Of a stretch of 64,000 nucleotides of DNA, positions 2,969-33,960 are shown in pieces. The position numbers and the translations under genes were made by a program. The notes below the pieces were generated by a model, which was given only the letters and a program-made list of their open reading frames with translations, made no database searches and had not been told where the DNA came from. The number at the start of each line of letters is the position of its first letter. The stretch's first letter is position 1. The stretch is from NCBI RefSeq assembly GCF_040219335.1, contig NZ_JAVJSQ010000026.1:1-64000 (forward strand), written 5' to 3'. Origin of the DNA: Gimesia sp. (GTDB taxonomy: Bacteria; Planctomycetota; Planctomycetia; Planctomycetales; Planctomycetaceae).

Positions 2969-4624
2969 ATGAGTGGCCCCGATGAGCCACAATGGGAATT
3001 ATTGCCTGACCGACCGGAAGATTTTTTCGGTCTGGAGGGAGATTACGATGTCCTCGATCTGAAACGGAAATACAATTCCTTTATTCGGAAATTCAAACCG
3101 GAAAAATTCCCGGAGGAATTCCAGAAAATCCGCGCCGCGTTCGAATCCCTGAACGACGCCCTCCGCTATGGCGAGCCCCTGCCGAGTTCACAACACCTGC
3201 AGTTTGACTGGTCCAGTGATACGGAACAGTCCGATTCCGAACTTCAGACAGAGTTGACAGGCTCACCCGCTGCAGATCCGCTCTACAATTCGTCCAGCGA
3301 AGCAACTGATAAAGGCCAGAAAACAGGTCTGCTGGAGCGACTCAAAGACGAACCGATCGACGTGCTGTATGCGGAATTGAAACAGCAGACCTCAAAATCT
3401 CCCTACGATTATTACGCGCTGGCCGTCTTTGCGGATCTGCTGCCCGAGACGAAAGGTAATTTTGCAGGCTGGATCCTGGAAGGCCTCAAGGTTCACCAGG
3501 AAGAGCCCGGACTGTTCGAATTACTGAAACAGTACTTCTCTCAGGAAATTCCACTGAAGGAACTCGCGTCCCTGTTGCTCAAAACGTCCCGCATCGTCAA
3601 CTCAGACCGCTTTTATTATCTGACCGAAAAAGGCTGGGATCGCTTGATCCGCAACGCGCCTTTCAAGATTTTTCGCAAGACACTCTCCAGCTGCGAAGCA
3701 AATTTACGCGACCATCGTGTCGACAACCTGCTGGTCTTCTATCTGCACATTCTGAAACCGGCCATCTGGAAAGCCAGTCAGAAGTGGATCGACCAGATCT
3801 TTGCTGAAGTCGACTCCCACTACGATGAACTGCCTTACTGGCTGGAACGCGAATATTACCTGCTGGACCTGCTCCGTCAGTACCGTGAGCAGCGGGACAC
3901 GTTTATCCAGGAGAGTGCCATCCGCGAGACCATCGACAGGGCCATCAGAAATTACAGTGTGCTTCCCGAAAGCGAAGCCGATCTGGCCTTCCTCGAATGC
4001 CAGCTTCTGCTGATCTCCTATGAAGACGATCTCCTGACGGAATTCCCCAAGCTGGACAAACAGCTGCTCAATCTGCGAATCCTCTGGGAACTCATCGCCG
4101 ATGATGTCTATGAGCGCGTGGAAGTCTATGTTGAATATAGCGAGAGTGAGCAGAGAGACTCGCAAATTCAGAAACTGGCCGATCAACTGTTTCACGAAAA
4201 TTATGGCCGTCGCTATCAGAACATCACCGAAATGACATCAACCACATACGTCCTGCTGTTTCTGGCTTCGATCATTTCCATTATCTATCTGATCTTTCGG
4301 ATGTTTTCCTCTTTCTGGTCCTCGCTGCTCTACATCGGCCTCATCGTACTGACCAACTTTATTTTCTTTATCCTCGCGGCCCTCTCCTCAAACTGGCTCA
4401 GAGACCGCTACTATCGCGCCGGCTGGCGGTTTGAGATCATGCGTTTCTTCCAGACCTGCTGGCTCCCCCTGGATGAAGTCGCCGAGGGCCTGGAAGCCCT
4501 GAACGGCACCAAAAAAGACGATATCGAATACGAAGAACTGGACGAAATCGCCAACCTCATGCGGCTCGACCCTGGGCTGTTTATCTACGTCACAGCCCAG
4601 CGATTACTGCATGCGAGTCACTGA
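2969..4624 (+). CDS. Membrane protein with degenerate J-like N-terminus
   Basis: 551 residues. Residues ~25-65 (YDVLDLKRKYNSFIRKFKPE then KFPEEFQKIRAAFESL) resemble DnaJ helices II and III, but the HPD tripeptide that activates Hsp70 is replaced by KPE, so it should not stimulate DnaK in the usual way. A long acidic helical region follows, then two adjacent membrane segments near residues 427-478 and a short C-terminal cytosolic tail. An AGAGGAG SD sits 6 nt before the ATG. It is paired with the upstream tail-anchored gene. Function unknown; a membrane-tethered scaffold is an inference only. Confidence 0.65.
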   Translation: MSGPDEPQWELLPDRPEDFFGLEGDYDVLDLKRKYNSFIRKFKPEKFPEEFQKIRAAFESLNDALRYGEPLPSSQHLQFDWSSDTEQSDSELQTELTGSPAADPLYNSSSEATDKGQKTGLLERLKDEPIDVLYAELKQQTSKSPYDYYALAVFADLLPETKGNFAGWILEGLKVHQEEPGLFELLKQYFSQEIPLKELASLLLKTSRIVNSDRFYYLTEKGWDRLIRNAPFKIFRKTLSSCEANLRDHRVDNLLVFYLHILKPAIWKASQKWIDQIFAEVDSHYDELPYWLEREYYLLDLLRQYREQRDTFIQESAIRETIDRAIRNYSVLPESEADLAFLECQLLLISYEDDLLTEFPKLDKQLLNLRILWELIADDVYERVEVYVEYSESEQRDSQIQKLADQLFHENYGRRYQNITEMTSTTYVLLFLASIISIIYLIFRMFSSFWSSLLYIGLIVLTNFIFFILAALSSNWLRDRYYRAGWRFEIMRFFQTCWLPLDEVAEGLEALNGTKKDDIEYEELDEIANLMRLDPGLFIYVTAQRLLHASH

Positions 4625-4804
4625 ACGTCATCTCCTGGAACACCGCTGTAAACGCTCTGGCTGAAGCCGCGAAATCAGTGTTTTTTAATTCAATTCACTC
4701 GAAATACTGTGAAAAAACTTTTTCCCTTGGCACTTCTCACACATCCCGATAACATAAACGTGCGCTGATGTTTAATGTTTCCCTCCCACCGGAGTCAGAA
4801 GTCC

Positions 4805-6181
4805 ATGAGTTTTCGCCAATCCCAGACAGGCTGCTCAGAGTTCCGGAAGTCTTTGAATCTGCAGCGACGTGATTTTCTCAAAGCCGGCGGACTCGGGCTG
4901 ACCGGTTTGACGCTCGCAGGACTGTTAGAGCACGAAGCACACGCTGGACCGGCAGCGAAGACGGAAAACTCGGTCATCATTCTCTGGATGCGGGGTGGTC
5001 CTTCACAACATGAAACCTGGGATCCCAAACCCCTGGCTCCCGCCGATTACCGCGGCGCGTTCGGCGCGATTAAAACCTCGGTCCCCGGTATTGAGATTGT
5101 CGATCTGATGCCCCGCTGTGCCAGCATCATGGACAAGTGGTCGATCATTCGCAGCCTGCACCATTCCAACGCCGGACATTCCGCCGGTGACCAGATCCTG
5201 TTTACCGGCTATCCCCCCGGAACGGATCCCACCACCAACGTCCATCCCAGCTGTGGCGCCGTGGTCTCAGAGCAACTGGGGCACCTGACTCCTGAGCTCC
5301 CTCCCTATGTCATGATCCCCCGCCAGGTACCGGGCACTGATTCCGCCTACCTGGGTGTCGCACACAAACCCTTCGAAACCCTGGCCGACCCGGCTAACGC
5401 AGGTCCTTTCACCCTGCAAAACTTCTCGCTGGTCGAAGGCATGAGTCAGAATCGTTTTTCCCGCCGCAAGGATTTACTGAAAGGGTTCGACCAGTTCCGC
5501 ACCGACCTGGACCGCTCCGGTCAACTGGATGCGATCAATGAGTTCCAACAGCAGGCGTTCGGCATCCTGAGTTCCGACAAAGCCCGCAAGGCCTTTGACC
5601 TGGACGCAGAACGGGACAGTACCCGCGACCGCTATGGCTTCACAGCCCGTTACGATCCGATGGATCCCCGGCGCTGCAGTGCGAGTGCCTTCTCACAACG
5701 GCTCCTGCTGGGACGCCGCCTGGTGGAAGCTGGAGTGCGTCTGGTCACTGTCGACTGCCGCTGGTGGGATACGCACGTTGAAGGTTTTGACTCGATGAAG
5801 AACGGCTTCCTCCCCCGCTGGGATCAGGCCTATTCGGCGTTGATCGAAGACCTCGATCAGCGGGGACTGCTGGAATCGACACTCGTCATCGCCTGGGGCG
5901 AATTCGGACGCACCCCGCGGGTCAATAAGAATTCGGGCCGCGACCATTATCCGAATGTGTTCAGCGCCGCAATCGCCGGCGGCCCCGTCAAAGGGGGACG
6001 CGTCGTTGGCTCTTCCGATTCGAAAGGGGCTTTCCCCAAGGACAACCCGAAAACACCCCAGGACGTCCTCGCCACGATTTACCAGCACCTGGGCGTCAAC
6101 ACCGAGAAACACTACCTGGATCATTCCGGACGCCCGATAGTGACGCTCCCCTTCGGTGAGCCGTTACACGAGCTGGCATGA
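4805..6181 (+). CDS. DUF1501 family protein, Tat-exported
   Basis: About 458 residues from ATG 4805, 10 nt after GGAG. An in-frame ATG at 4775 would place the Tat motif further inside. The QRRDFLK twin-arginine motif is at residues 20-26, followed by a hydrophobic stretch ending near EAHAG, so the folded protein is exported by Tat. The body has DUF1501 landmarks: WMRGGPSQHETWDPKP, RSLHHSNAGHSAGDQ, and the C-terminal WGEFGRTPRVN with GRDHYP, which resembles alkaline-phosphatase/sulfatase-superfamily metal sites. DUF1501 genes are very abundant in planctomycetes and often sit beside DUF1553/PSD1 cytochrome proteins; no such partner is present here. Substrate unknown. Confidence 0.88.
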   Translation: MSFRQSQTGCSEFRKSLNLQRRDFLKAGGLGLTGLTLAGLLEHEAHAGPAAKTENSVIILWMRGGPSQHETWDPKPLAPADYRGAFGAIKTSVPGIEIVDLMPRCASIMDKWSIIRSLHHSNAGHSAGDQILFTGYPPGTDPTTNVHPSCGAVVSEQLGHLTPELPPYVMIPRQVPGTDSAYLGVAHKPFETLADPANAGPFTLQNFSLVEGMSQNRFSRRKDLLKGFDQFRTDLDRSGQLDAINEFQQQAFGILSSDKARKAFDLDAERDSTRDRYGFTARYDPMDPRRCSASAFSQRLLLGRRLVEAGVRLVTVDCRWWDTHVEGFDSMKNGFLPRWDQAYSALIEDLDQRGLLESTLVIAWGEFGRTPRVNKNSGRDHYPNVFSAAIAGGPVKGGRVVGSSDSKGAFPKDNPKTPQDVLATIYQHLGVNTEKHYLDHSGRPIVTLPFGEPLHELA

Positions 6182-6199
6182 ACATAAATAACAGACAGG

Positions 6200-9100
6200 T
6201 TACTCGTCGTCCACGCGTTTAATCAACGCGTTGTAGTCTTTCATGCAGCGTTTCACCAGATCCTTGAGTTCCTGAAACTCGGCCTGGTTAGCCTGCGAAG
6301 AATTGAGCAGAGGCTGCATCCAGCCCTGCATCAGGTCGAACTGCGTTTCCAGCACATTCAACAATGAGCGGGGAATCTTATTGACCACGGTAATCCGGTC
6401 GTCGGGTTCCACAGCCGGTTTCTCAGCAGCCGCCTGCTGTGTTTCACGAGTCTGCAGTGACTTCTCAAACAGTGTCGTCACATCTTTCGTCCCCGAGCTC
6501 AGAGCTGCCTGGATGGCGCGCAGGCTCTCGGAGAGATTCTGGAACCGTTCCGCGAATTCGCGGGCATATTGATCCAGGTTAGTCTCTGTTTTCTCTTCTG
6601 TCAGTCTGCCGATGCCGGCGTTCATGGCTTCGCGGATATCCTGTAGTCCTTCGCCTACATTCGCCAACTGTAGAATCGCCTGTGCCATGCGATCTTCACC
6701 GCCCACACTCTTTAACTGCTGATTCTTACGGAATGACTTTTTGATGTCGTTCCAGCGCTGCAGCTCGGCTTCCTTCAGGATGCCCATCAGTTCCTTGAAC
6801 TTCAACAGGTTGGCTTCAGTATCCGAGGTCAGGGTCTGGGCATCGTTTTCGTAGTTGGAAACAATCAGCGTTTCCAGTTCCCTGTCATTCATCACCGCAA
6901 ATACCTTCTCAGCAATGCGGTTCATGTTTCGGTAGGACCCCTGCAGTTTGAACGCCGGTTCGGTCCGGTATTCGTCTGACTGGGCCGCCGAGCGGATGTA
7001 TTCGCGGTTCACACTCAAAATCACATCGCGAACCCGAATCAGTTTCTTCATCGTGGAAACCATCTCGTTCAGTTCTTCGACGGAATAGTTGCCTTCCAGG
7101 TCGCCGCGTTCGCCGGTTCCATCTTCGGCCATCTGAATGATCGTGTAAATGTCTTTCTGACTGCGTGACGTGAGCGGATTCAAAACCGGGTTGGAGGTAA
7201 TACAGTTTTCCAGGTAGCTCATTTCGAACGCATCCGCGTGTTCGCCAATCACTTCACCCAGGTTATAAATGTCGGCCCGGTTTGAAAGCATGTCGGGGAT
7301 CTGGAACTTTTCCCCACTCTCGGTATACGGGTTCCCAGCCATGACGACCGCTACTTTGCGTCCCCGCAGGTCGTAGGTCCGTGTCTCCCCTTCGTAGACC
7401 CCTTCGATCTTCCGCTGGGCGTCACACAGAGAGATGAATTTCTGCAGGAATTCGGGATTACAGTGCTGAATATCGTCCAGGTAGATCATCACGTTGTCGC
7501 CCATTTCCAGCGACAGGTTCAGCTTCTTCACTTCTTCCCGGGCCCCCGCATTCGGTGCGGATGCGGGATCGAGCGAAGTCACCTGGTGCCCCAGGGCCGG
7601 CCCGTTGATCTTCATGAAGATGATCCCCAGGCGATTGGCGATGTATTCCATCAGCGTGGTCTTACCATAACCCGGCGGAGACACCAGCATCAGCAGTCCC
7701 ATCCGGTCGGTTCGTTTATTCTCGCCCGCTTCCCCCATCTGCTTGGCCAGGTTATCGCCAATCACAGGCAGATAAACTTCATCCAGGAGACGGTTCCGGA
7801 CAAACGAAGTCAGCACCCGCGGACGAAACTCTTCCAGTCGCATCGCATGCCGGGCTTCGTCGACGATTTCTTTCTTGAGCGTGACATAGGATTCGAAGCG
7901 GGGCACTTTCACCTGCTGGAATTCATTCAACCGCTGCATGAACCGGTTATAGTGCAGGTGATATTCGCCCTGCTGAATCCGGGCATGCGAACCCGAGAGC
8001 CCACTGATCTGATCGGTCACCCGGGCATCGATCAGTCGCTGACGATCCAGTTTGCCCGCCAGCAGCAGTAAGGCAATTTCATCCCGGTAATCTCTGTCTT
8101 CATCGGAATTCAGATGATCCAGGTAAGCGCCGACCCAGTCCCGGGCCAGCAGAAACCAGTTCAGCGGATTGGCATGAGTCGCTTCGAGACTCTCCTGGAA
8201 TCGTTCCAGTGCGTTATTGTGTTTTAAGTACTTCTCAAATTCCTGGAACAGCTCTCCCGCCCGCTGACTGACCACGAATTGATTGCCGTGCACGAGTTCC
8301 TGGAACAGGTACTCTGCAGACTCGGGAACCAGCGCCGGTTCGAAACAATGCAATCGTTGTACGAACTCCGTCAGCTGTTGTTGAAGTTCGCTGATATAGT
8401 ACTGCTGTTTTCCGGTCTGTGGGAAGACCTGCATGATGCGACCAAAACCAGAGAGCTGCGATTCAAACAGCGTTTTCAGCTCCGGGGCACAGAAGTAATT
8501 CCAATAGAGATTAGACAGAGATCGGGCCGCAGGCTGGTATCGCAACAGTCCCAGGGCCGGCTTAATCTTGAGTAGCGATTTGACGAGCAGCAGCGCATCC
8601 TGATCGTGCACTCCCTTCACGTAGCCTTCGCTGTAGCGGGGCCCCATAAACTTCTGAATGAATGCCAGCAGTTCTTCATCGGTCAGTTTCACCACCGATT
8701 CCAGCGATGTTTCCGGATCGGAATCCAGTGAATTCAACAGCGTATAGGCCAGGTATTCAACGCGATAAACGTCCCTGTTTTCGGAGACCAGTTCCTGGTT
8801 CCAGACATCACGGGTCGCCAACAGCCGTTCGTCTTCAATTTCAGAAAAGAAATTAGTCCCCGTCAGATGCAGTTGCAGCACATCGTCCCGCATGACCGTG
8901 GTCAGATCCAGGGCCTGACGATTGACGGTAAAATTACGATTGCCCAGCCGGATGATATTTTCGCCATCAACAAACAGTTCCTGCTTGTCTTTCAACTGCC
9001 GGACCGCGTCTTCGCGAATACTCTTCAATCGGCTCTGGATGTCGTCGACCTTGACCGTGTCTTCCAGCTCACCCAGTTGCCGTACGATATCCCGCACTTT

Positions 9101-11548
9101 GTCGATCATCAGATCCGAGGCAAAGTAACCGTTGATCTCGTTGATCGATTCGAGCTGCTCTGCCCGACTGCGAATGCCGGTCAGAATCCGTTCGGCCGAT
9201 TTCGTCAGCGAATTGGCCCGTTTATTTCGGCTTTCCACAATCGCCAGTTTGCGCGATTCAAACGCCGCGTAGATCTCTTCCCGCTTCTCTGTCAACTGCT
9301 CGACGAACTCATCGAATTCAGCGAACCGGCCTTCCAGCTCTTCAACCTGAATCATCAGTTTCGTCAGGAAGTCATCACACTTCTCGGGGGAATCACTGAC
9401 ATCCAGGTAGTTAACGACTCCCTGGTTCAGCAGCTTGATCTGGGCATTGAACTCAGCGACGCCTTCGACCGACATCAGATCCTTGATGCGATTCTTCAGC
9501 GCAGCCCGACTCTGATTGATGCGTGAGAAATTGGCAGAGATATTGTCGATGATCGCAGTCCGCTGCGTGGTGTCTTCCACTTTCAGATTACTGACAATAT
9601 CGATCAGCATCTCCAGCTCACCGGAACTGGCTTCGATCTCTTCTTCCACCTTCCGCGCGTCGGCTACTTTCTCGACCGTTTTAATCTTCTCGGAGGCAGC
9701 AGAGATCCGGTCGGCGTACGGTTTCAGGGCATCTTTTCGCAGCAGGAACTCAACACAGCGTCCAGCCAGTTTTTCGGTTCGTTCGCTGACTTTCGCTTCC
9801 AGTTGATCGACCAGCGTCACATCGACATACCGCAAATCTCGCAGGGAGATGACATCCCCCCGCAGACTCCGCAGGCTGGCCAGGCTCTGTACGAAATCAT
9901 CGATCTGATCGAACCGGCGATGATCGATGGCGACCAGGGTTTCGCGGGTCTGCGTCTCGACTTCGGCGGTCTTCTTCCTGGTATTCTGCCTGAGCTGCAG
10001 CACCTTTTCATACTCGGTGACCGCAGCTTCCGCCGCTTTCTTGATTTCCAGGACCACTTCACCCAGGGCATACGTATCCTGATGATTGATCCAGAAATAG
10101 GAATCCAGCACGTCCGTTGACTGTTTCACCAGATCGACATACAGATTTTCGTAAGCATCTCTGCGGTAAATCAGCCCAAGGAGTTCATGGCACTCTGCCA
10201 TCCCGCGGACAATGTCCTTATTGCCGATTTTATTGAGATAGGAATCGGTCTTGTGGGGAACTTCAAAAGATTCGCTGACGTAGGGCGTTTTCCAAAGCTG
10301 AATCGTGTGATGTTTCTGTGGCTCTCCCTGTCCCGAGAAACAGATCAGCTCGCCCCCTTCGAACAGCGTAAACCCATGGCAGATCATCGGGGTATCAAGT
10401 TTCTGTTCGATCACATTGTACTGCAGAAGCACGTGCACACCCTGTTCGGGCTGATAGAAGACGTAGAGAAAGTCTTCCCCGTTCGGTGCCGCGATCCGTT
10501 CCTGGTAGAGCATGTCCTGCAGGTCGGTTTCAAACGTTTTCGAATCCCCATTCTGCAGATAATAGCCGTTGGAAAACACGAGGCCATGATCATCGGGCAG
10601 CAGAATACAGGCATCCTTGATCGAATCCAGCCGCCGGGCCTGCTGCAGCTTTTCATTGTAAATGAAATAACGGAATTTCGATTCTTTGTAAGGACGAATC
10701 TTGAGCAGAATCAGTGAGCCGATCAATGCATAGAAAATCTCGGCATCATCGAGCGTCTGATCCGGGTCATCCACGGGTTCCGCGTAGATACCCTCACCGG
10801 TATCGGTGTTGTTCTCGATCTTGATGGTCAGGTCGCCGCCAATGGTCTCCACAAACAGACGGTCATCAATCGAGATATGAGGATGCACGCCCGAATAATG
10901 CAGATCGCGGTGTGTCCGCACCCACTCGAATTCCTGCTGGGGTGGATACTGCACTTCGTGATCGCTGCGGTTATCCACGTAGACCAGTTGATCTTCCTGG
11001 AAGGCCCATTTAAATGTTTTAAAATCGCGGGCTCCCTGCCCCACCTTGAACAGCATGTATAAAAAAGGTCCTTTGACAAAAAACTTGGCAAAGGTCGCAT
11101 TCTTATAGTAGCGGTAGATGTCCTTGAAATCTTTTTCGAACGCTGGGTCCTGAATCAGATCCAGGGGGAGGTTGTGATAAGTTCCGTCTTTGAATTCGTA
11201 GACTGAAAACACATCACTCAGCTGGATTTCTGTTTTCAGCCCGAAACGCACATTGTAGCCAAACAGAAACCGGTTCCCGACCGCCAGCATATCACGGGGC
11301 ACGCAGTTGTGCTCGGTCGTAATCCGATCGCTGCCCAGCAAGCGGGTTTCAATCGAACCAAAGACTTCCTTGCGACGTTCATTCAGTTGCGACAGGCGGG
11401 ACTGCAGTTCCTTACCACGACTCTGCAGACGGTTCTGAATGATTTCATACGTACTGCTCTCCAGCGCAATGGCGTCCGCATTGTCGGCTGCAGTCTCGGA
11501 TGTATGATTTTCTGAATCCGCCATTTGTTCGTGAATCCCGTGGCTCAC
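6200..11548 (-). CDS. Giant DUF3686-type AAA+ ATPase ('DNA repair ATPase')
   Basis: 1782 residues. The N-terminal half resembles the DUF3686 region of proteins annotated as ATPases involved in DNA repair: a beta-rich block to about residue 450, then long coiled-coil helices to about 950. A C-terminal AAA+ module has Walker A PPGYGKTTLM near residue 1290 and Walker B VMIYLDDIQHCNPE near 1355, followed by a MoxR-like NPYTESGEKFQIPDML sensor region and a helical tail. The 'DNA repair' name is historical; no nuclease or DNA-binding motif is visible. It is the last gene of an operon with a flotillin-like and a YqiJ/NfeD-like protein, which suggests a membrane-microdomain remodelling role. The start is GTG at 11548 or ATG at 11524; neither has a good SD. 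Confidence 0.85.
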   Translation of the reverse strand: MSHGIHEQMADSENHTSETAADNADAIALESSTYEIIQNRLQSRGKELQSRLSQLNERRKEVFGSIETRLLGSDRITTEHNCVPRDMLAVGNRFLFGYNVRFGLKTEIQLSDVFSVYEFKDGTYHNLPLDLIQDPAFEKDFKDIYRYYKNATFAKFFVKGPFLYMLFKVGQGARDFKTFKWAFQEDQLVYVDNRSDHEVQYPPQQEFEWVRTHRDLHYSGVHPHISIDDRLFVETIGGDLTIKIENNTDTGEGIYAEPVDDPDQTLDDAEIFYALIGSLILLKIRPYKESKFRYFIYNEKLQQARRLDSIKDACILLPDDHGLVFSNGYYLQNGDSKTFETDLQDMLYQERIAAPNGEDFLYVFYQPEQGVHVLLQYNVIEQKLDTPMICHGFTLFEGGELICFSGQGEPQKHHTIQLWKTPYVSESFEVPHKTDSYLNKIGNKDIVRGMAECHELLGLIYRRDAYENLYVDLVKQSTDVLDSYFWINHQDTYALGEVVLEIKKAAEAAVTEYEKVLQLRQNTRKKTAEVETQTRETLVAIDHRRFDQIDDFVQSLASLRSLRGDVISLRDLRYVDVTLVDQLEAKVSERTEKLAGRCVEFLLRKDALKPYADRISAASEKIKTVEKVADARKVEEEIEASSGELEMLIDIVSNLKVEDTTQRTAIIDNISANFSRINQSRAALKNRIKDLMSVEGVAEFNAQIKLLNQGVVNYLDVSDSPEKCDDFLTKLMIQVEELEGRFAEFDEFVEQLTEKREEIYAAFESRKLAIVESRNKRANSLTKSAERILTGIRSRAEQLESINEINGYFASDLMIDKVRDIVRQLGELEDTVKVDDIQSRLKSIREDAVRQLKDKQELFVDGENIIRLGNRNFTVNRQALDLTTVMRDDVLQLHLTGTNFFSEIEDERLLATRDVWNQELVSENRDVYRVEYLAYTLLNSLDSDPETSLESVVKLTDEELLAFIQKFMGPRYSEGYVKGVHDQDALLLVKSLLKIKPALGLLRYQPAARSLSNLYWNYFCAPELKTLFESQLSGFGRIMQVFPQTGKQQYYISELQQQLTEFVQRLHCFEPALVPESAEYLFQELVHGNQFVVSQRAGELFQEFEKYLKHNNALERFQESLEATHANPLNWFLLARDWVGAYLDHLNSDEDRDYRDEIALLLLAGKLDRQRLIDARVTDQISGLSGSHARIQQGEYHLHYNRFMQRLNEFQQVKVPRFESYVTLKKEIVDEARHAMRLEEFRPRVLTSFVRNRLLDEVYLPVIGDNLAKQMGEAGENKRTDRMGLLMLVSPPGYGKTTLMEYIANRLGIIFMKINGPALGHQVTSLDPASAPNAGAREEVKKLNLSLEMGDNVMIYLDDIQHCNPEFLQKFISLCDAQRKIEGVYEGETRTYDLRGRKVAVVMAGNPYTESGEKFQIPDMLSNRADIYNLGEVIGEHADAFEMSYLENCITSNPVLNPLTSRSQKDIYTIIQMAEDGTGERGDLEGNYSVEELNEMVSTMKKLIRVRDVILSVNREYIRSAAQSDEYRTEPAFKLQGSYRNMNRIAEKVFAVMNDRELETLIVSNYENDAQTLTSDTEANLLKFKELMGILKEAELQRWNDIKKSFRKNQQLKSVGGEDRMAQAILQLANVGEGLQDIREAMNAGIGRLTEEKTETNLDQYAREFAERFQNLSESLRAIQAALSSGTKDVTTLFEKSLQTRETQQAAAEKPAVEPDDRITVVNKIPRSLLNVLETQFDLMQGWMQPLLNSSQANQAEFQELKDLVKRCMKDYNALIKRVDDE

Positions 11549-22623: not shown

Positions 22624-24219
22624 TTACATCACAGAGAAGTAGTTTTCGACAGCAAAGTCGAATGCCTCCGCGCTGAGTTTGCGCGGCAGTTCCTTGTAGG
22701 TGCAGAAGTTCTTGACCTGCAACAGGAGGTCGCGCGGCTGACAGGCGCGGAACGGTCGATCTACGGCCTTGTAATGCGTATCGACCAGGTGCTGGTAAGC
22801 CTCCTCGTCAAACTGGAAGCCCATGATCGGCGCCATCAACTCAAACAAGGCCCGGAATTCCTCCTCGGAGGGATCGAGGGCCTCGATTTTGTAAGGAATA
22901 CGACGCAGAAACGCAGCGTCGACCAGATCCTTCGGCTCCAGGTTCGTTGAAAAGATAATCAACTGGTCGAAGGGCACCTGAATCTTTTTCCCGCTGGGCA
23001 GGTTCAGGAAGTCGTAGCGTTTTTCCAGCGGAACAATCCAGCGGTTGAGTAACTCATCCACGGGCATCCGCTGACGTCCAAAGTCGTCGATCACAAACGT
23101 CCCGCAGTTACTCTTCAACTGCAGAGGGGCTTCACAGATCTTGGTCTGCTGATTCTGCGTAATTTCCAGTTCCTTCATGGTGAGTTCCCCCCCGGCGATC
23201 ACCGTAGGACGCACAATCTGCACCCACCGCTGATCAATGCCGGACAGGTCAAACAACCCCTCGGCTGTCTCTTCCTGAACAACCTCTTCGTGCAGTCCCG
23301 GGTCGAAAATTCGTATGATATCCCCATCGATGCCCAGGCAGCGGGGAATCCAGATCGTTGAACCAAAGGCTTTGGTAATTCGCTCTGCAATACTCGTCTT
23401 CCCGTTCCCTGCTTCACCGAAGAGGAACATCCCCCGGCCCGAGTTGACGGCAGGCCCCAGGCGATCCAGCATCTTGGGATTAATAATCAGATCGGAAAAG
23501 GCTTCTTTCAGATCCGCTTGTGTGGCTTCCTGCTTGGCGATACTCTGCAGTTCCATCGCCTTAAGGTAGTCTTTAAAACAGACGGGGGCCGCTCCGAAAT
23601 AGGTACACTCCTGCGCATACCGTCGTGCGCGTTCCCGACCGAGTTCGGTAATCATGAATTCATAGTCGCCCATCTCGGCAGTACTGCCATAGGCAACCAG
23701 TTGATCCTGCTTGGCACGTTTCAGAATGGCATCCACAATTCCAAAGGGCAACTTGACCTGCTTGCAGATCTGGCGTCCCGTTTGAGTCCCTTTCGCCAGC
23801 AGATACTTGAGGATCAATCTCTCGATTTCATCCTGGGTCAATCCGGTATCTTCCAGCGTTTCCGGACACTGAGGAACGAATTTCCCCTGCGATTCTTCGG
23901 CACTCCCTTTCAGCAGGGACTGTACGCGATTAAACAACTGGCTCAGATGCTGATCCTTGCCAATCACCCGCATGGGTTCGCTTAATTCGGGAAGTGCAGA
24001 GGTCGACACCCCATCGGCGTCGTCTTCAGCATACGAGTCCGAATCGTCAGAAACCTCCGCGGCAGCCAGCTCCAGCATGCTCAAAGAGGCCAGAAGCTCT
24101 TCGGTATTCACCGTATTCGATGCGGTTTTCCCTGTGGCTTCTTTTTCATCATGATGGGATTGAAGATTGGACACGTCGGAAGTAGTTTCATGAGCTGACA
24201 TATTCGGTTCACATTCCAT
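22624..24219 (-). CDS. Winged-helix AAA+ ATPase
   Basis: 531 residues. Residues 1-110 are acidic and low-complexity, probably disordered. Residues ~125-200 look like a winged helix ([38 protein letters not shown]). The AAA+ core has Walker [10 protein letters not shown] at 268-276, Walker [15 protein letters not shown] near 370, and a sensor-like [10 protein letters not shown]. The core resembles ATPases sometimes annotated 'with chaperone activity' and MoxR/RuvB-like helicase loaders. No partner gene is adjacent, so the substrate is unknown. Start is ATG 24219 or ATG 24201; neither has a good SD. Confidence 0.75.
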
Positions 24220-24559: not shown

Positions 24560-24587
24560 TTGACTTGGTACCCCCTCGACCTAGATT
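24560..24587 (+). promoter_or_regulatory. Candidate promoter of the amidotransferase-ACP-ligase operon
   Basis: TTGACT (24560-24565) and TAGATT (24582-24587) are separated by 16 nt. Transcription would begin near 24594, about 60 nt before ATG 24656. The -10 box matches the consensus at four of six positions, so this is tentative. Confidence 0.4.
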
Positions 24588-24655
24588 CCCTCTGTAAGAG
24601 TATTCTCTTGCAGACAGGCAACTTCCATCTCTTCTTACTTGAACTGGATGCTTCT

Positions 24656-26629
24656 ATGTGTGGAATTGCGGGCTTCATCCGCACTGATCGACGCCCCGTC
24701 GAACAGGCAGAACTGAAAAAAATGATTGCCACTCTGAATCACCGCGGTCCTGATGCCTCAGGCACACAGGTCTCGGATTCAGTCGGACTCGCCCACAGTC
24801 GACTCAGCATTGTCGACCTGGCCGGTGGCCTGCAGCCCATGCAGACTCCCGATGGCATGCTCAGCGTCACATTCAACGGAGAGATTTTCAACCACATCGA
24901 ACTGCGTGCCCAGCTTCAGCAGAAAGGCTACCAGTTCCAGACCCACTCCGATACAGAAGTCATCCTGCTGATGTACGCCGAATATGGTCCTGAATGCGTA
25001 CATCACTTTAACGGACAGTGGGCCTTCGCAATCCATGATCGACGCAAACAGGAAGTCTTTCTGTCCCGCGACTGGATGGGAATCCGACCACTGGTCTATA
25101 CGCAGACTCCCAGTCGCTTTTGCTTTGCCTCAGAAATCAAAGCCCTGTTTGCCCTGCCGGATGTCGAACGACGCGTCGATCACACAGCATTGAACCAGCT
25201 GTTTACCTTCTGGTCTCCTCTGCCTCCCCGTACATTTTTTGCCGGTGTCTCTGAACTGCCCCCCGGTCATTCCATGATCGTGAAAGACGGTAACGTCAAA
25301 ATCTGGCAATACTGGAATCTCGACTATTCACCCAACGAAGACAACCGCTCACTGGACGACTGGGCAGACGAACTGCGGTCGCTGCTGATCAACGCCACCC
25401 AGCTCCGGCTGCGGGCTGATGTGTCCGTCGGCGCCTACCTGAGCGGCGGACTCGACTCATCAATCACAGCCGCCATCATTCGCAATTACACCAACGCCCC
25501 GCTGAACACCTTCTCGGTCAACTTCAATGACAAAGATTTTGACGAAAGCCAGTTCCAGCAGGAAATGATCACCGAACTGGGCACCGACCATCAGACAGTC
25601 TGCTGCTCTTATGACGATATCGGACGCATCTTCCCGACGGTAATTCAGCACACAGAAAAACCGGTTTTACGCACAGCACCTGCCCCCATGTTTCTCCTGT
25701 CGAAACTGGTCCGGGAAAGTCAGTTCAAAGTCGTCATGACGGGAGAGGGTGCCGATGAAGTCTTCGGTGGCTACGACCTGTTTAAAGAAACAAAAATCCG
25801 TCGCTTCTGGAGTCGGCAACCGGATTCCAAAATCCGTCCGCTGCTGCTCAAGCGTCTCTACCCTTACATGAAAAATCTGCAGGCCCAGTCCCCCGACTAC
25901 CTGAAGGCGTTCTTCAAGATTCGTGAAGACGAACTCGACAGCCCCTTCTTCTCGCATCTCCCGCGCTGGGACCTGACAGCCAAACTCAAAACATTCTTCA
26001 GTGATGACCTCAAACAGGAACTGCAAACACAGGATCCACCGGCTGAGTTCCAGCAACAGCTGCCCGCTCAGTTTTCGGAGTGGCCTTCCTTCTGTCAGGC
26101 ACAGTACCTGGAAGCCATCAATCTGATGCCCGGTTATATTCTGTCTTCCCAGGGAGACCGGATGGCGATGGGCAATTCAGTCGAAGGCAGGTTCCCGTTC
26201 CTGGATTACCGGGTGGTCGAGTTCGCTTCCCGCGTTCCCGTACGCTTCAAGATGAACGGTCTCAACGAAAAATTCCTGCTGAAATACGCCTTGAGAGACC
26301 TGATTCCCGACAGCATACGCCAACGTCCCAAACAACCGTATCGTGCTCCGGACGCACACAGCTTCATCGACTCAAACAGCCAGCGGGCACGGTTTGCTTA
26401 TGTCAACGAACTGCTGTCACCGGAACGCCTGGAGGCGCATGGACTGTTCCAGCCCACCGCAGTCCAGCGACTGGTCAAAAAGATGGAACAGGGACGCGCC
26501 ATCGGCACGCGAGACAACATGGCTCTGGTCGGAATCCTTTCGACCCAGATTCTGGTCGAACAGATGATCAACGGCCAGACAGTCACAGCCGGAAAAGAAA
26601 CAACAGCTCCCGCCACCATTACGAGTTAA
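24656..26629 (+). CDS. Asparagine-synthase-type glutamine amidotransferase
   Basis: 657 residues from ATG 24656, chosen so that Cys2 becomes the N-terminal nucleophile of the Ntn glutaminase domain (MCGIAGF). Glutaminase residues are present: Arg49 region RLSIVDL, Asn74-Gly75-Glu76 in NGEIFNH, and Asp99 in HSDTEV. The synthetase half has the PP-loop ATP site YLSGGLDSS near 261-269 and GEGADEVFGGY. It transfers glutamine nitrogen to an adenylated carboxylate, in asparagine synthesis or amidation of another acid. Its place at the head of an operon with an ACP, an AMP ligase, a NadE-like enzyme and a deacetylase favours a dedicated pathway over plain asparagine synthesis. Similar amidotransferases occur in exosortase/EPS clusters; no exosortase is seen here. 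Confidence 0.9.
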   Translation: MCGIAGFIRTDRRPVEQAELKKMIATLNHRGPDASGTQVSDSVGLAHSRLSIVDLAGGLQPMQTPDGMLSVTFNGEIFNHIELRAQLQQKGYQFQTHSDTEVILLMYAEYGPECVHHFNGQWAFAIHDRRKQEVFLSRDWMGIRPLVYTQTPSRFCFASEIKALFALPDVERRVDHTALNQLFTFWSPLPPRTFFAGVSELPPGHSMIVKDGNVKIWQYWNLDYSPNEDNRSLDDWADELRSLLINATQLRLRADVSVGAYLSGGLDSSITAAIIRNYTNAPLNTFSVNFNDKDFDESQFQQEMITELGTDHQTVCCSYDDIGRIFPTVIQHTEKPVLRTAPAPMFLLSKLVRESQFKVVMTGEGADEVFGGYDLFKETKIRRFWSRQPDSKIRPLLLKRLYPYMKNLQAQSPDYLKAFFKIREDELDSPFFSHLPRWDLTAKLKTFFSDDLKQELQTQDPPAEFQQQLPAQFSEWPSFCQAQYLEAINLMPGYILSSQGDRMAMGNSVEGRFPFLDYRVVEFASRVPVRFKMNGLNEKFLLKYALRDLIPDSIRQRPKQPYRAPDAHSFIDSNSQRARFAYVNELLSPERLEAHGLFQPTAVQRLVKKMEQGRAIGTRDNMALVGILSTQILVEQMINGQTVTAGKETTAPATITS

Positions 26630-26679
26630 CACAATCCCTTAATAACATCTCCACTCAGTACAGCTAAGAGGTTAATAAC

Positions 26680-26937
26680 ATGAATCCCATTCAATCAGAG
26701 ATCCGTAACTTTGTCGCCGAAAACTTCCTGTTCGGAGAAGATCCGGAATCTTTGCAGAACGACGACTCATTCCTGGAAACAGGCATCATCGATTCCACAG
26801 GCGTGCTCGAACTGGTTGCCTTTATCGAAGACCAGTATCACGTTGAAGTCGATGACGATGAACTTGTCCCGGAAAACCTGGACTCCATCAATCGTCTGAT
26901 CGATTTCATCGACTCCAAAATCAAAGAACTGGCCTAA
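26680..26937 (+). CDS. Acyl carrier protein
   Basis: 85 residues, acidic and four-helical like ACP. The phosphopantetheine serine is Ser39 in GIIDSTGVLELV; the usual DSL is DST here, as in many specialised, non-fatty-acid ACPs. It carries an acyl or aminoacyl group as a thioester. The AMP ligase gene begins 18 nt downstream and probably loads it. The amidotransferase gene ends 50 nt upstream. AAGAGG precedes the ATG at a workable distance. It is distinct from the housekeeping AcpP because of the DST motif and its operon context. Confidence 0.9.
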   Translation: MNPIQSEIRNFVAENFLFGEDPESLQNDDSFLETGIIDSTGVLELVAFIEDQYHVEVDDDELVPENLDSINRLIDFIDSKIKELA

Positions 26938-26955
26938 TTTCAAAGGAGCGGGCTG

Positions 26956-28512
26956 TTGTTACTACAATCATTTCTGGAACAGAGCGCCAGTCATCATCCT
27001 GACAAAGTCGCCTTGATCATCAATCAGTCGCGGTACACCTACCGGGAACTGGAACAGCAGAGCAACCGGCTGGCACATGCCCTGCTGGAACGGGGGCTGC
27101 AAAGAGGAGACCGGGTGGCCATCCATCTGGAAAACTCACTCGAAGCCGTCGTCGCGATCTTTGCGACCATCAAAGCGGGTGGTGTGTTCGTAATGGTCAA
27201 TCCCACTACGAAAATCGATAAGCTGACCTACGTGCTCAACAACTGCCGGGCCAGCGTACTGATCATCCCCGGGAAGAAACGGACCTCGATCCTCGAACAT
27301 TCCGATCTGCTGCCACACCTGAAAACCGTGGTGACCGTGGGTCCTGCCACCGGACATCCGGAGCAGTCCGATCTGCAGATGCCCCGCTTCGCCGAGTGGG
27401 ATCAACTGCAGTCTGATTTCGCGGACCAGAATACCCCGCCACACATCCAGACGATCAGCATCGATCTGGCGGCCCTGGTCTACACCTCAGGCTCAACCGG
27501 AAATCCCAAGGGGGTCATGCTGACTCATTTAAACATGACTTCAGCCGCCCGCTCGATTACCACCTACCTGATGAATGTCCCCGAAGACATCATCCTCAAT
27601 GTACTCCCGCTGTCGTTCGACTACGGTCTGTATCAGCTGCTGATGGCATTCCGCGTCGGTGCGACACTGGTTCTCGAAAAATCCTTTACCTATCCACATG
27701 CAGTGCTGCAGAAGATCATTGATGAAAAAGTGACCGGATTTCCGCTGGTCCCGACGATGTCTGCCATTCTGCTGAAAATGGATCTCTCCAAGTATGACTT
27801 CTCGCAGCTGCGCTATATCACCAACACCGGTGCCGCGCTGCCCACAGAGCATATCCTGACATTCCGCAAACGGCTGCCTCACCTGCAGATCTTCTCGATG
27901 TACGGTCTGACCGAGTGCAAGCGGGTTTCGTATCTGCCCCTCGATCAGGTCGATATCAGAACCGGTTCGGTGGGTATCGCCATGCCGGACACGGAAGTCT
28001 TCATCGTCGACGACGAAGGTCATCGCCTGCCCCCCGAACATGTCGGCGAACTGGTAGTACGTGGTGCCAATGTCATGAAAGGTTACTGGGAAGCCCCCGA
28101 ACGTACCGCCGAACGTCTGAAAGCGGGAGAACTGCCGGGAGAAATGTTCCTGTATACCGGCGACCTGTTCCGCATGGACCGCGCAGGCTACCTGTACTTC
28201 GTAGGCCGACGAGATGACATCATTAAAAGTCGCGGTGAAAAAGTCAGCCCGAAGGAAGTGGAAAATGTACTGTTTGCCCATCCGGCAATTTCGGAAGCCG
28301 CCATCGTGGGTGATCCCGATCCAGTCCTGGGACAATCAATCCGTGCCATCGTCACCATGATGCCCGGAGAGGAACTGACCGAAAAAGAGGTCCTTTCCTA
28401 CTGTCGCAAGCACCTGGAAGATTTCATGGTTCCACAGAAAGTGGAATTCCGTGACGAGCTTCCGAAATCACCCAACGGCAAAGTCGATAAAAAACAGCTG
28501 GCTCTGCCCTGA
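26956..28512 (+). CDS. AMP-forming acyl-CoA/ACP ligase
   Basis: 518 residues. Start is TTG, backed by AAAGGAG 7 nt upstream. It is an ANL-superfamily adenylating enzyme: P-loop-like TSGSTGNPKGV at about 176-186, YGLTECK at about 316, YTGDLFRMDRAGYLYFVGRRDD with the hinge Asp, and the C-terminal catalytic Lys in PNGKVDKKQL. It activates a carboxylic acid as acyl-AMP and transfers it to a thiol, here most likely the ACP encoded immediately upstream. It resembles the acyl-CoA ligases found beside amidotransferases in exosortase-A-linked EPS clusters. Acid specificity cannot be read. Cytoplasmic. Confidence 0.92.
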   Translation: MLLQSFLEQSASHHPDKVALIINQSRYTYRELEQQSNRLAHALLERGLQRGDRVAIHLENSLEAVVAIFATIKAGGVFVMVNPTTKIDKLTYVLNNCRASVLIIPGKKRTSILEHSDLLPHLKTVVTVGPATGHPEQSDLQMPRFAEWDQLQSDFADQNTPPHIQTISIDLAALVYTSGSTGNPKGVMLTHLNMTSAARSITTYLMNVPEDIILNVLPLSFDYGLYQLLMAFRVGATLVLEKSFTYPHAVLQKIIDEKVTGFPLVPTMSAILLKMDLSKYDFSQLRYITNTGAALPTEHILTFRKRLPHLQIFSMYGLTECKRVSYLPLDQVDIRTGSVGIAMPDTEVFIVDDEGHRLPPEHVGELVVRGANVMKGYWEAPERTAERLKAGELPGEMFLYTGDLFRMDRAGYLYFVGRRDDIIKSRGEKVSPKEVENVLFAHPAISEAAIVGDPDPVLGQSIRAIVTMMPGEELTEKEVLSYCRKHLEDFMVPQKVEFRDELPKSPNGKVDKKQLALP

Positions 28513-28603
28513 TACGGCGATCCACAAAGCGATTTCATACACAATACATACTTATTACCAACGCCTGCTGAATCGTTCTCAGTGGGCAACAGGAGAACCA
28601 TAA

Positions 28604-29599
28604 ATGTCGACCACAACTTCCACCCGTACTTTCAGTCCTGCTTTGTTAGATCTCGATTGTGCTGCAGAAACCGAACGCATCGTCCGCTGGATGCAGGAAA
28701 CTGTCCGCAAAGATATGCGTAAAAAAGGCGCCGTTCTGGGTCTTTCCGGAGGGATCGACAGCAGCGTCGTGACCGCACTTTGTGTCCACGCCTTCGGTTC
28801 TGACCGGGTGCTGGGAATCATGATGCCCGAACACGACACAAAAGACGAAAGCCTGATCTACGGCCAGTTACTCGCCGATCATTACCATGTCGAGTCACTC
28901 GTCGAAAACATCTCCCCCATGCTGCAGGGAGCGGGCTGTTACGAACGCCGTGATGCTGCTATCAAAAAGGTCATCCCGGAATACGAACCTCACTGGAAAT
29001 CCAAAATCGTGCTGCCCGACCTGCTCCAGGAAGGGGGCTACCGTGTCTTTTCCGTAGTCGTGCAGACTCCGGACGGGGAACTGATCAAGAAACGACTCCC
29101 TCTCTCGGCCTATCAGACCATTGTCGCAGCAACGAACTTCAAACAGCGCTGTCGAAAAATGATGGAATACTATCATGCAGACCGCCTGAACTACGCAGTG
29201 CCGGGTACACCGAATCGCCTCGAATACGACCAAGGCTTCTTCGTCAAAAACGGCGATGGTGCTGCAGACCTGAAACCGATCGCGCACCTTTACAAGACGC
29301 AGGTCTATCAGCTGGCAGCTTACCTGAATGTTCCGGAACTGATCCAGATGCGTCCTCCGACTACCGACACCTATTCTCTGGAACAGTCCCAGGAAGAATT
29401 CTTCTTTGCCGTCTCTTACGACAAACTGGACTGCTGCCTGTATGGCTTAAACCACGGTTATTCCGCAGCCGAAGTGGCAGAAGGCATCGGACTGCCCGCT
29501 GAACAGGTTGCACTGGTTTACAGCGACATCGAATCAAAACGCAAAGCAGGTCATTACCTGCACATGTCACCACAATTGATTGAACGTGTCGCTAACTGA
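28604..29599 (+). CDS. NadE-like ammonia-dependent synthetase
   Basis: 331 residues. N-type ATP pyrophosphatase with PP-loop LGLSGGIDSSV near 46-56, GTPNRLEYDQGF and the NGDGAADLKPIAHLYKTQVY block of NAD+ synthetases. It is about 55 residues longer than bacterial ammonia-dependent NadE. The extra sequence (about 105-165, containing the segment around PHWKSKIVLPDLLQEGGYR) lies between the PP-loop half and the AATNFKQRCRKMMEY block. There is no fused glutaminase, so it needs free ammonia. Being the fourth gene in a biosynthetic operon, it may have been recruited to amidate a pathway acid, or may simply supply NAD+; the sequence does not decide. ATG start preceded by CAGGAGA. Confidence 0.85.
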   Translation: MSTTTSTRTFSPALLDLDCAAETERIVRWMQETVRKDMRKKGAVLGLSGGIDSSVVTALCVHAFGSDRVLGIMMPEHDTKDESLIYGQLLADHYHVESLVENISPMLQGAGCYERRDAAIKKVIPEYEPHWKSKIVLPDLLQEGGYRVFSVVVQTPDGELIKKRLPLSAYQTIVAATNFKQRCRKMMEYYHADRLNYAVPGTPNRLEYDQGFFVKNGDGAADLKPIAHLYKTQVYQLAAYLNVPELIQMRPPTTDTYSLEQSQEEFFFAVSYDKLDCCLYGLNHGYSAAEVAEGIGLPAEQVALVYSDIESKRKAGHYLHMSPQLIERVAN

Positions 29600-29624
29600 G
29601 ACCGTTGCTGGAGAGGCAACTGTG

Positions 29625-30692
29625 ATGGAAAGGATATGGGGTATGAGTAAAAAAGAACTGCTGGCCAGAGCGCTCGACTGGACAGGAATGAATCTGCTCG
29701 CGCGAAATACGCCAGTCTGGAATGGTCTGGTTGTTCTGAATTACCATCGAATTGGAGACAGGCAGAACTCACTGTTCGATCACGATCTCTGGAGTGCATC
29801 TGCAGAAGATTTTGAACAACAAGTGCGATTCCTGACTCTGAATTTCGATCTGATCCGCATTCAGGATCTGGACCATATCTGGAAAAGCCCGCGAGGACGA
29901 TACGTCCTCATTACATTCGATGATGGATACCTCGATAATTATGAATGGGCCTTTCCCCTGCTCCGTGCCTACAATTCACCAGCCACGTTTTTCCTGACCA
30001 CCGGCTTTCTGGACGAGCGCAAGATCGCCTGGTGGGACGAAATCTCCTGGATGGTTCGCAGCTCGTCACAGAGCAATTTGAAACTGGCCCCCTGGAGTGA
30101 GCAGCAACTCTCTCTGGAACCTACTCAGCAATGTCAGACGATTAAAATACTCTTACAGATCTACAAGGGGCTGTCCGGGGAACAGACAGAGGACTTTATG
30201 ACTGCCCTCGCAGACGCGACCGGCACCGGTCGCTGTCCCGCAGAAATCGCAGATCGGGTCTGGATGGACTGGGACATGATCCGCGAAATGAGTGAAGCGG
30301 GCATGGATATCGGCGGTCATACCGTCAATCACCCCATCCTGGCCAATCATCCGGAAGAAACTCAGAAATTCGAAGTCCAACACTGCAAGCAGCGCATCGA
30401 AACCGAACTCAATCAGTCGATCTCGGCGTTCAGTTATCCCGTGGGTGCCCAAAATTCGTTTGACCATCTCACGCGCAACTGTCTGGAGGAATCCGGATAT
30501 CGCTGGGGATTCAGCTATTACGGCGGTTACTCGTCCCTGGGTGAGCATGATCCCTGGGACCTGCCTCGCATCGCCATTGAATCCGAAAATCCCGCGGCCC
30601 TGTTCCGGTCGTCGGTCTCTTTCCCGCAGGTCTTCAGCCAGAAGAAGGTGTACACTAACACAGACACCAATCCTGCAGTCTCAGCCGAATAA
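29625..30692 (+). CDS. Polysaccharide deacetylase (NodB homology)
   Basis: 355 residues from ATG 29625, with GGAGAGG 8 nt upstream; the frame is open from TTG 29580, inside the previous gene. The NodB fold has motif 1 TFDDGY (97-102, catalytic Asp and metal Asp), motif 2 HTVNHP (metal His232 and His236) and the PVGAQNSFD motif replacing the usual R-x-P motif. An insertion of about 60 residues separates motif 1 from motif 2. No signal peptide is obvious, so it may act on a cytoplasmic or membrane-linked sugar intermediate. It is the last gene of the amidotransferase operon, 25 nt after the NadE-like gene. It removes N-acetyl groups from amino sugars in known relatives. Confidence 0.9.
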   Translation: MERIWGMSKKELLARALDWTGMNLLARNTPVWNGLVVLNYHRIGDRQNSLFDHDLWSASAEDFEQQVRFLTLNFDLIRIQDLDHIWKSPRGRYVLITFDDGYLDNYEWAFPLLRAYNSPATFFLTTGFLDERKIAWWDEISWMVRSSSQSNLKLAPWSEQQLSLEPTQQCQTIKILLQIYKGLSGEQTEDFMTALADATGTGRCPAEIADRVWMDWDMIREMSEAGMDIGGHTVNHPILANHPEETQKFEVQHCKQRIETELNQSISAFSYPVGAQNSFDHLTRNCLEESGYRWGFSYYGGYSSLGEHDPWDLPRIAIESENPAALFRSSVSFPQVFSQKKVYTNTDTNPAVSAE

Positions 30693-32484: not shown

Positions 32485-33960
32485 ATGGCCGGTTTGAACT
32501 GGGGTTTTTCTTTACTGCGAACGAAACTCTCAAATACCGGCTGGGCCCTGCTGCTCTGCCTGATCACATTGCTGAGCCTGTCGCCCGCAAAAGCACAGGC
32601 GCGGCCGGCCCGCCAGCATCCGAACTTTGTGATCATCTTTACCGACGATCAGGGCTACCAGGATGTCGGCGTCTTCGGCTCCCCGAACATTAAAACTCCC
32701 AATCTTGACCAGATGGCCCAGGAGGGAGTTCGCTTTACCGACTTCTACGCTGCCCAGGCCGTCTGTTCCGCCTCACGGGTTGCCCTGCTCACCGGATGTT
32801 ATCCCAATCGCGTCGGCATTCGCGGCGCACTGGGACCACAGTCCAAGATCGGCATCAACTCAGAAGAAACCACAATCGCGGAAGTCGTCAAGCCACAAGG
32901 CTACGCCACCGCAATCTACGGCAAATGGCACCTGGGACATCTCCCCGAATTCCTGCCAACCCGCCACGGCTTCGACGAGTATTTCGGACTCCCCTACTCA
33001 AACGATATGTGGCCGTTCCACCCGACAGCGGGAAAGCGGTTCCCTGACCTGCCCCTGATCGAAAATGAAACCGTCATCAACCCCAAAGTGACCGGCAAAG
33101 AACAGGCTCAGCTCACGACCTGGTACACGGAACGTGCCGTCTCGTTTATCAACAAACACCATGACCAGCCCTTCTTCCTGTACGTCCCGCAGTCCATGCC
33201 TCACGTGCCCCTGTATGTCAGCGACAAGTTCAAAGGCAAATCAGAACAGGGCCTGTATGGCGACGTGATCATGGAAATCGACTGGTCCGTCGGCCAGATC
33301 CGTCAGGCACTCAAAGAAAACGGCATCGCAGAAAACACCCTGGTGATCTTCACCTCCGATAACGGTCCCTGGCTCTCCTATGGAGACCATGCTGGCTCGG
33401 CGCTCCCCCTGCGGGAAGGTAAAGGCACCGCCTGGGATGGCGGCCAACGCGAACCCTGCATCATGGCCTGGCCCGGACAGATTCCGGCAGGCACTGTCTG
33501 TCACGAGATGGCAATGACCATCGATCTTCTGCCCACCATCGCCTACCTCTCCGGCGGCAAGGTGCCTCAAGACCGCATCATCGACGGCAAAAACATCTGG
33601 CCCCTCATGAGTGGAGAATCAGGAGCTAAATCCCCCCACGAGGTGCTCTACTTCTACTGGGGCGATCACCTGAATGCGGTTCGCAGCGGCAAATGGAAAC
33701 TGCACTTCCCGCATCCTTACCGCAGCCTGAAAGACAAACCCGGCTCCGGCGGTACACCCGGCCCCTACATTCAGAAGAAAACCGGCCTGGCACTCTATAA
33801 CCTGAAAGACGACATCAGCGAAAGCAAAAACGTCGCTGATCAGCATCCTGAAGTCGTCAAACGCCTCACTGCTCTGGGAGAACAGGCCCGCGAAGACCTC
33901 GGCGACTCCGGCACAAAACGCAAAGGCAAAAACAACCGCCAGCCCGGCCGGGTTGATTGA
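32485..33960 (+). CDS. Secreted arylsulfatase-type sulfatase
   Basis: 491 residues. A signal peptide (about 1-38, core [15 protein letters not shown], cleavage after AKAQA) sends it to the periplasm. Metal Asp54 and Asp55 lie in [13 protein letters not shown]. The formylglycine motif CSASR is at 94-98 and is followed by ALLTG, so Cys94 is the residue oxidised by the FGE/anSME system. GKWHLGH and the TSDNGPW block complete the active site. It hydrolyses sulfate esters, likely on sulfated marine polysaccharides, as in the many sulfatases of planctomycetes. GGYHP-like substrate motifs cannot be assigned. The 3' end is convergent with the next gene, with only 15 nt between them. Confidence 0.95.

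Follow-up and report, generated by a model that had tools for sequence, protein, structure and literature searches.

A four-gene cassette of AsnB-type amidotransferase, carrier protein, AMP-forming ligase and NadE-like synthetase in Gimesia sp. and other bacteria

Five genes at the Gimesia locus

We analysed the first 64 kb of a Gimesia sp. contig (hereafter the window; label G000:C26) and, within it, five genes lying at 24560..30692. They encode an AsnB-type glutamine amidotransferase, a free-standing acyl carrier protein (ACP), an AMP-forming ligase, a NadE-like synthetase and a polysaccharide deacetylase (Table 1). The first four, hereafter asnB, acp, ligase and nadE, form a cassette that recurs in many other bacteria.

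A check of open reading frames (ORFs) and translations showed that all five ORFs were present, open and in the same direction. The initial annotation had depicted tightly packed co-directional genes with gaps of 50, 18, 91 and 25 nucleotides (nt), and this was reproduced with two starts corrected, to ATG 24656 for AsnB and to ATG 29625 for the deacetylase. The longest AsnB ORF, from TTG 24560, is probably over-extended, since in the class II glutaminase family Cys is required as the second residue (MCGIAG). The start listed for the deacetylase, TTG 29580, gives a 20 nt overlap with nadE. Promoter-like matches (4 vs 4.6 in shuffles) and terminator-like matches (8 vs 5.7) were at about shuffle level, so transcription as a single operon rests on spacing and conservation.

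All five family matches (Asn_synthase with GATase_7, PP-binding, AMP-binding, NAD_synthase and Polysacc_deac_1) were above the Pfam cut-offs. AsnB showed the motifs MCGIAG, SGGLDSS and GEGADE, plus KQPYRAP, a cassette signature. The intact adenylation motifs of the ligase, the DST in place of DSL in the ACP and the presence side by side of two separate amide/ammonia enzymes, one AsnB-type and one NadE-like, had all been pointed out beforehand and were found here as well. The best solved relatives of the ACP are named peptidyl carrier protein (2my5/2my6). Inspection of the deacetylase translation by eye gave no obvious signal sequence.

Table 1. The five genes, with positions in the window and the matches or motifs that identify them
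Feature	Position	Strand	Matches and motifs
AsnB-type glutamine amidotransferase, 657 aa	24656..26629	+	Pfam GATase_7 + Asn_synthase; TIGR01536, 517.6 bits
Free-standing carrier protein, 85 aa	26680..26937	+	PF00550, 29.6 bits; phosphopantetheine Ser39 in DSTG
AMP-forming acyl/aminoacyl ligase, Asp222+Thr291 pocket type	26956..28512	+	PF00501 + PF13193
NadE-like ammonia-dependent amide synthetase, 331 aa, PRK00876 type, insert ~108-172	28604..29599	+	NAD_synthase
Polysaccharide deacetylase, accessory gene	29625..30692	+	PF01522 (Polysacc_deac_1), 86.8 bits; TFDDG, GGHTVNH

Linkage of four genes across bacterial groups

In a survey of 101 genomes of the family, cassette-type AsnB (at least 57% identity and at least 849 bits, the next best match having 402 bits) was found in 11 genomes, the ligase (at least 60%) in 10 and the NadE-like protein in 10. 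AsnB, ligase and NadE-like protein co-occurred in the same 10/101 genomes, and in the eleventh AsnB genome the ligase, next to acp and asnB, is cut off by the end of the contig. A wider draw of 199 genomes of the phylum gave the NadE-like protein in 6, with asnB and acp adjoining in 6/6 and a ligase match in the stretch read for five of these (none in G050). A profile search with the NadE-like alignment then yielded at least 563 confirmed matches, and the loci discussed below are the best 80 of them by similarity to the query alignment. All four genes were within the fetched flanks of 66/80 loci, and of 46 of the 51 loci flanked by 6 kb or more on each side, vs none of 10 windows around canonical NadE genes (9.6-20 kb). 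The control windows were planctomycete only, namely these 10 (some at contig ends) and 4 picked for holding a homologue of the GNAT protein described below. Because the same 10/101 genomes carry the parts and the set recurs across phyla, linkage of the four genes is far beyond chance.

The conserved unit is four genes, not five. The earlier expectation that five families travel together, and the check for co-occurrence in other genomes that had been proposed with it, held for asnB, acp, ligase and nadE and failed for the deacetylase, whose homologue (E 1e-5) was found in 13/80 loci, directly after nadE in L037 and L114. Among the best 80 of at least 563 matches, the nearest named relative of the window's NadE-like protein is that of L037, Gimesia sp., at 87% identity. 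Gene order varied, with nadE preceding asnB in some loci titled Nitrosomonadales (L058, L062, L089), and two consecutive ligases occurred in two loci titled Nitrospira (L087, L103). By record title, the tree rows fell into 12 phylum-level groups (7/85 rows without a group), and titles of metagenome bins can mislead: L042, titled Kuenenia, groups with Planctomyces. The distance matrices of the four proteins correlated (r 0.66-0.84, Mantel p 0.001, 74 loci). The window's own copy (L022) was excluded from the signature alignments, the distance matrices, the tree and later counts, and the tree also left out L023-L031; five of these are duplicates, three come from the same genus, and L027 is not demonstrably a duplicate. 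What looked like a fusion of AsnB and NadE in L036 proved to be an artefact, the two matches lying in different frames.

Two short motifs mark the cassette, namely DST in the ACP and K-x-PYRAP in AsnB, and the window has both. DST was present in 86/91 aligned ACPs; the five without it are three non-cassette proteins (L032-L034) plus those of L059 and L095. K-x-PYRAP was present in 79/84 AsnBs, the remainder being those of L095, L099 and L110 and the second AsnBs of L093 and L108. Of 15 non-cassette AsnBs, 14 had K-x-GFG-[VT]-P and one had KQPYRAP. In these signature counts and in the ligase pocket counts below, five genomes are counted twice, and the non-cassette proteins of L032-L034 and the second ligases or AsnBs of L060, L093, L101 and L108 are included. 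Separately, L141 (G260:C43:37895-39823) encodes a 40%-identical AsnB with KQPYRAP in a genome without a NadE-like gene at E 1e-20; it is possibly a related system.

The NadE-like protein has the NadE fold with conserved ATP-pyrophosphatase motifs, it passes the curated NCBI model NF002048, named NAD(+) synthase, and its solved relatives include the nicotinamide mononucleotide (NMN) synthetase 3fiu. These are the features that would be expected if the gene served NAD/NMN metabolism and its position in the cassette were incidental, which we hold to be extremely improbable: the linkage extends across phyla, the enzyme has its own insert and its own conserved motifs, and another full-length NadE frame was found in 10/12 cassette genomes (partial or weak in the other two, G248 and G050). 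In the window's genome, this second candidate, on contig C15, is a frame of 560 aa that matches PF02540 in full. The cassette gene is therefore not the cell's only NAD synthetase candidate, which rules out a housekeeping NadE as the sole reading, but a second NadE in the genome is no proof that the cassette enzyme is without NAD synthetase activity. Canonical NH3-dependent NadE shares its fold and ATP-pyrophosphatase motifs, whereas the cassette enzyme differs by its length and insert (Table 1) and reads QSQEEF where 2e18 has QTDEDE. The missing W-GQ-DE loop was set aside as proof against NAD synthetase activity; this is a weak argument, because most catalytic-site motifs are conserved. The NadE-like gene is common, with at least 563 matches, and the public name NAD(+) synthase is probably misleading for many such genes and for NAD-metabolism models that use it.

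The same four genes are found on pSymB of Sinorhizobium (S.) meliloti 2011, where asnB, acp, ligase and nadE are 51%, 52%, 51% and 58% identical to those of the window. Strains 2011 and 1021 have the same sequence from within asnB through to nadE, and the PLSDB copies of both strains list no features there. pSymB had one ligase match at E 1e-60 or better and three PP-binding matches, and in the pSymB stretches read only the cassette PP-binding match adjoins such a ligase. On these grounds, the pair is almost certainly SMb20650/SMb20651, the locus tags being our own assignment. As stated in the available part of the report (PMC7232532), smb20650 and the ACP gene smb20651 are cotranscribed, and expression of SMb20650 with holo-SMb20651 in E. 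coli gave acylated SMb20651 in vivo. The idea in the initial annotation that the ligase loads the ACP thus has experimental backing in the homologous pair. In the accessible portions of two further papers, SMb20651 is counted among the ACPs needing further functional study in 2017 (PMC5686131), and smb20650 among the genes down-regulated under predation (PMC10315480). The S. meliloti cassette has the same gene set as the window, but no deacetylase homologue in the 19 kb read, and it lies near minCDE in strain ml56. The ACP SMb20651 thereby gains a four-gene context, which makes it possible to look for the product in a laboratory strain.

Ligase types, partner genes and a proposed pathway

The 95 ligases comprised 57 with Asp222+Thr291, which is the type of the window, 37 with a non-Asp residue and Ala291, and one with Asp+Gly (a nonribosomal peptide synthetase (NRPS)-like domain); the positions of these pocket residues come only from alignment and NRPS numbering. 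In the alignment, Asp222 falls on the Asp with which amino-acid adenylation domains bind the amino group. The pocket type changed at least 14 times on the NadE tree. In L108 (variant locus, 4322-10978), no ligase of this family was found at E 1e-5, and acp and nadE are separated by KASIII, SDR (assigned by cluster membership), FabA-like and Antibiotic_NAT genes. Since the ligase types split and no ligase of this family was found in L108, the acid appears exchangeable while AsnB, ACP and NadE-like enzyme stay. The two coupled pocket types suggest that amino-acid and other cargo may be handled on a constant amidation core, and they allow a direct mutational test of cargo choice. Two attempts at naming a determinant were abandoned. 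The NRPS specificity code DYYTTTMRVK (aligned by eye) is not known to match any other code, and no acid is named. Arg323 as a carboxylate binder was not used, being common to the wider family, including non-cassette ligases of L033/L034 and a 40%-identical ligase of L036.

Partner genes were counted in the 49 loci of at least 18 kb (long loci), with models for polysaccharide, GNAT and other markers built from the cassette neighbours themselves. At least one polysaccharide marker occurred in 30/49 long loci vs 0/14 control windows, and any polysaccharide-deacetylase marker in 18/49. In Azospirillum ramasamyi, glycosyltransferases, deacetylase, acp, ligase, asnB, nadE and GNAT stand in one run. 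A tandem-GNAT protein was encoded in 35/80 loci (23/49 long ones) and is a somewhat commoner partner of the cassette than the deacetylase; the planctomycete loci L038, L039, L040 and L042 have the order ligase-nadE-GNAT-deacetylase. In the window's genus, the deacetylase lies directly 3' of nadE, and all four genomes have one GNAT homologue away from the cassette, at 30-32% identity. The single homologue in the window's genome is at L123:9807-10868 (G000:C22), and the ORFs surrounding the genus homologue are conserved in four genomes. As a separate observation, an SGNH/GDSL-like protein (weak Pfam match) lies near the cassette in 11 loci, e.g. L058:7714-8544, and accompanies the tandem GNAT in 0/9 loci of at least 18 kb.

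In the window, the five genes are flanked by a divergent gene (22624-24219) on one side and by rpsD (at 30991) on the other. The divergent gene encodes 531 aa and is kept in four genomes of the genus; its weak AAA ATPase match (20.6 bits) is below cut-off. A sulfatase-like ORF, named by eye from its sequence, lies at 32485-33960, and four genomes of the genus retain it next to the cassette.

We propose that asnB-acp-ligase-nadE makes an acyl- or aminoacyl-ACP and carries out two ATP-dependent amidations, and that the product decorates a cell-surface glycan or glycolipid. We see this proposal as evenly poised between being right and being wrong. The ligase would adenylate an acid, most likely an amino acid for the Asp222/Thr291 type, and load it on holo-ACP, a step supported by the experiment with the S. 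meliloti homologue. The AsnB-type enzyme would use ammonia from glutamine to amidate a carboxylate that could belong to the carrier-bound acyl group or, as with WbpS, to a uronic-acid sugar. The NadE-like enzyme, as its conserved ATP-pyrophosphatase motifs suggest, would adenylate and amidate a second carboxylate. In the window's genus, the deacetylase may expose the amine of a sugar, to which a GNAT-superfamily transferase, encoded next door in many relatives and elsewhere in the window's genome, would move the acyl from the ACP. Everything after ACP loading, including the product and the order of the steps, we infer from protein families and gene context. The surface-glycolipid or polysaccharide pathway that had been suggested at the outset fits the polysaccharide and deacetylase markers of the long loci; its product class is likewise inferred, and no glycosyltransferase was found among the six neighbours scanned in the window.

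Several points weigh against this proposal. The pocket types depend on the alignment and numbering given above. The restriction of a methyltransferase marker to Asp-type loci (14/14, among 72 loci with a ligase; Fisher p 4e-4) is in itself a point in favour, but correcting for the tree left 5 independent pairs and no significance (median p 0.125). The gene content of L108 speaks for acyl over aminoacyl cargo there. No polysaccharide marker was found in 19/49 long loci, no glycan cluster among the six scanned non-cassette neighbours in the window, and none among the annotated features within 9 kb of the cassette in S. meliloti strain ml56. Finally, SMb20650 is called a predicted long-chain acyl-CoA ligase in the part of PMC7232532 that was available, so that a fatty acyl cargo is possible.

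The latter name also bears on an alternative, namely that the cassette product is a diffusible or membrane lipid-like molecule, e.g. an N-acyl amino-acid amide, instead of a glycan decoration. The structural model of the tandem GNAT (planctomycete form, mean pLDDT 87.8) matches the folds of Eis-type acetyltransferases and N-myristoyltransferase at 9-16% identity, and the loci of the window's genus and of S. meliloti are without visible glycan neighbours. The best NCBIfam model of the ACP is the OlsHI ornithine-lipid ACP NF052616, though at 67.2 vs a cut-off of 130, and we therefore rejected membership in that system (available part of the OlsH paper, PMC12493201). We consider the lipid-like product unlikely, given the polysaccharide markers in 30/49 long loci, the alignment of Asp222 with the Asp of amino-acid adenylation domains, and the failure of smb20650 to complement or replace fadD, as given in the available text of PMC7232532.

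Beyond the glycan proposal, a NadE paralogue may have been recruited for carrier-linked amidation across the 12 phylum-level groups, which would yield amidated aminoacyl- or acyl-sugars of a new class, with the acid repeatedly exchanged and the AsnB/NadE core kept fixed. We hold this wider claim tentatively and lean somewhat towards doubt. If true, the labels asparagine synthase, acyl-CoA ligase and NAD(+) synthase conceal a pathway.

Comparison with known systems

Each of the families is known, while their combination and its breadth look undescribed within the literature searched. In searches by cassette parts, with subscription journals mostly outside scope, no title or abstract opening described the cassette as a unit. 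Overall, the initial annotation was right about the carrier, the ligase, the two amidation enzymes and their co-occurrence, and it was one family too wide in the unit that it drew.

In the Dlt system, the free-standing D-alanyl ligase DltA loads a small acid on the free-standing carrier DltC. The window ACP scored 23.4 bits with the DltC model vs a cut-off of 68, and the cassette differs by its AsnB and NadE-like partners. WbpS is an AsnB-type amidotransferase of O-antigen clusters involved in uronamide formation and offers a precedent for the cassette AsnB in glycan biosynthesis; in contrast to the cassette, no carrier protein, ligase or NadE-like partner is described with it in the available part of PMC3684757. 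In rhodobacterial sphingolipid synthesis, a dedicated ligase, AasR, likewise charges a dedicated ACP, AcpR, but their partner is a serine palmitoyltransferase and no amidation enzymes are described in the accessible part of PMC9386255.

The XrtA/PEP-CTERM exopolysaccharide sets comprise related families, with the amidotransferase TIGR03108 and the ligase TIGR03098, which AsnB and the ligase of the cassette resemble. Exosortase or EpsI markers were found in 14/80 loci, as would be the case if the cassette belonged to the exosortase/PEP-CTERM export system. We think this hardly probable and rejected membership, since both curated models scored below cut-off (505.1 vs 592.35 for TIGR03098 and 420.9 vs 816.9 for TIGR03108), and 66/80 loci had no such marker within the flanks retrieved, which in some cases are short. 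No exosortase was found among the 11 proteins scanned at the window (5 of the operon and 6 neighbours; the rest of the genome was not searched). Exosortase markers and the tandem GNAT shared 0/80 loci, and in long loci exosortase occurred in 0/23 with GNAT vs 12/26 without (p 1e-4, kinship ignored). FemAB-type transferases occurred in 7/49 long loci, 6 of these with exosortase markers. The cassette shares related ligase and amidotransferase families with the XrtA/PEP-CTERM sets, and differs from them by having the NadE-like gene as a constant member.

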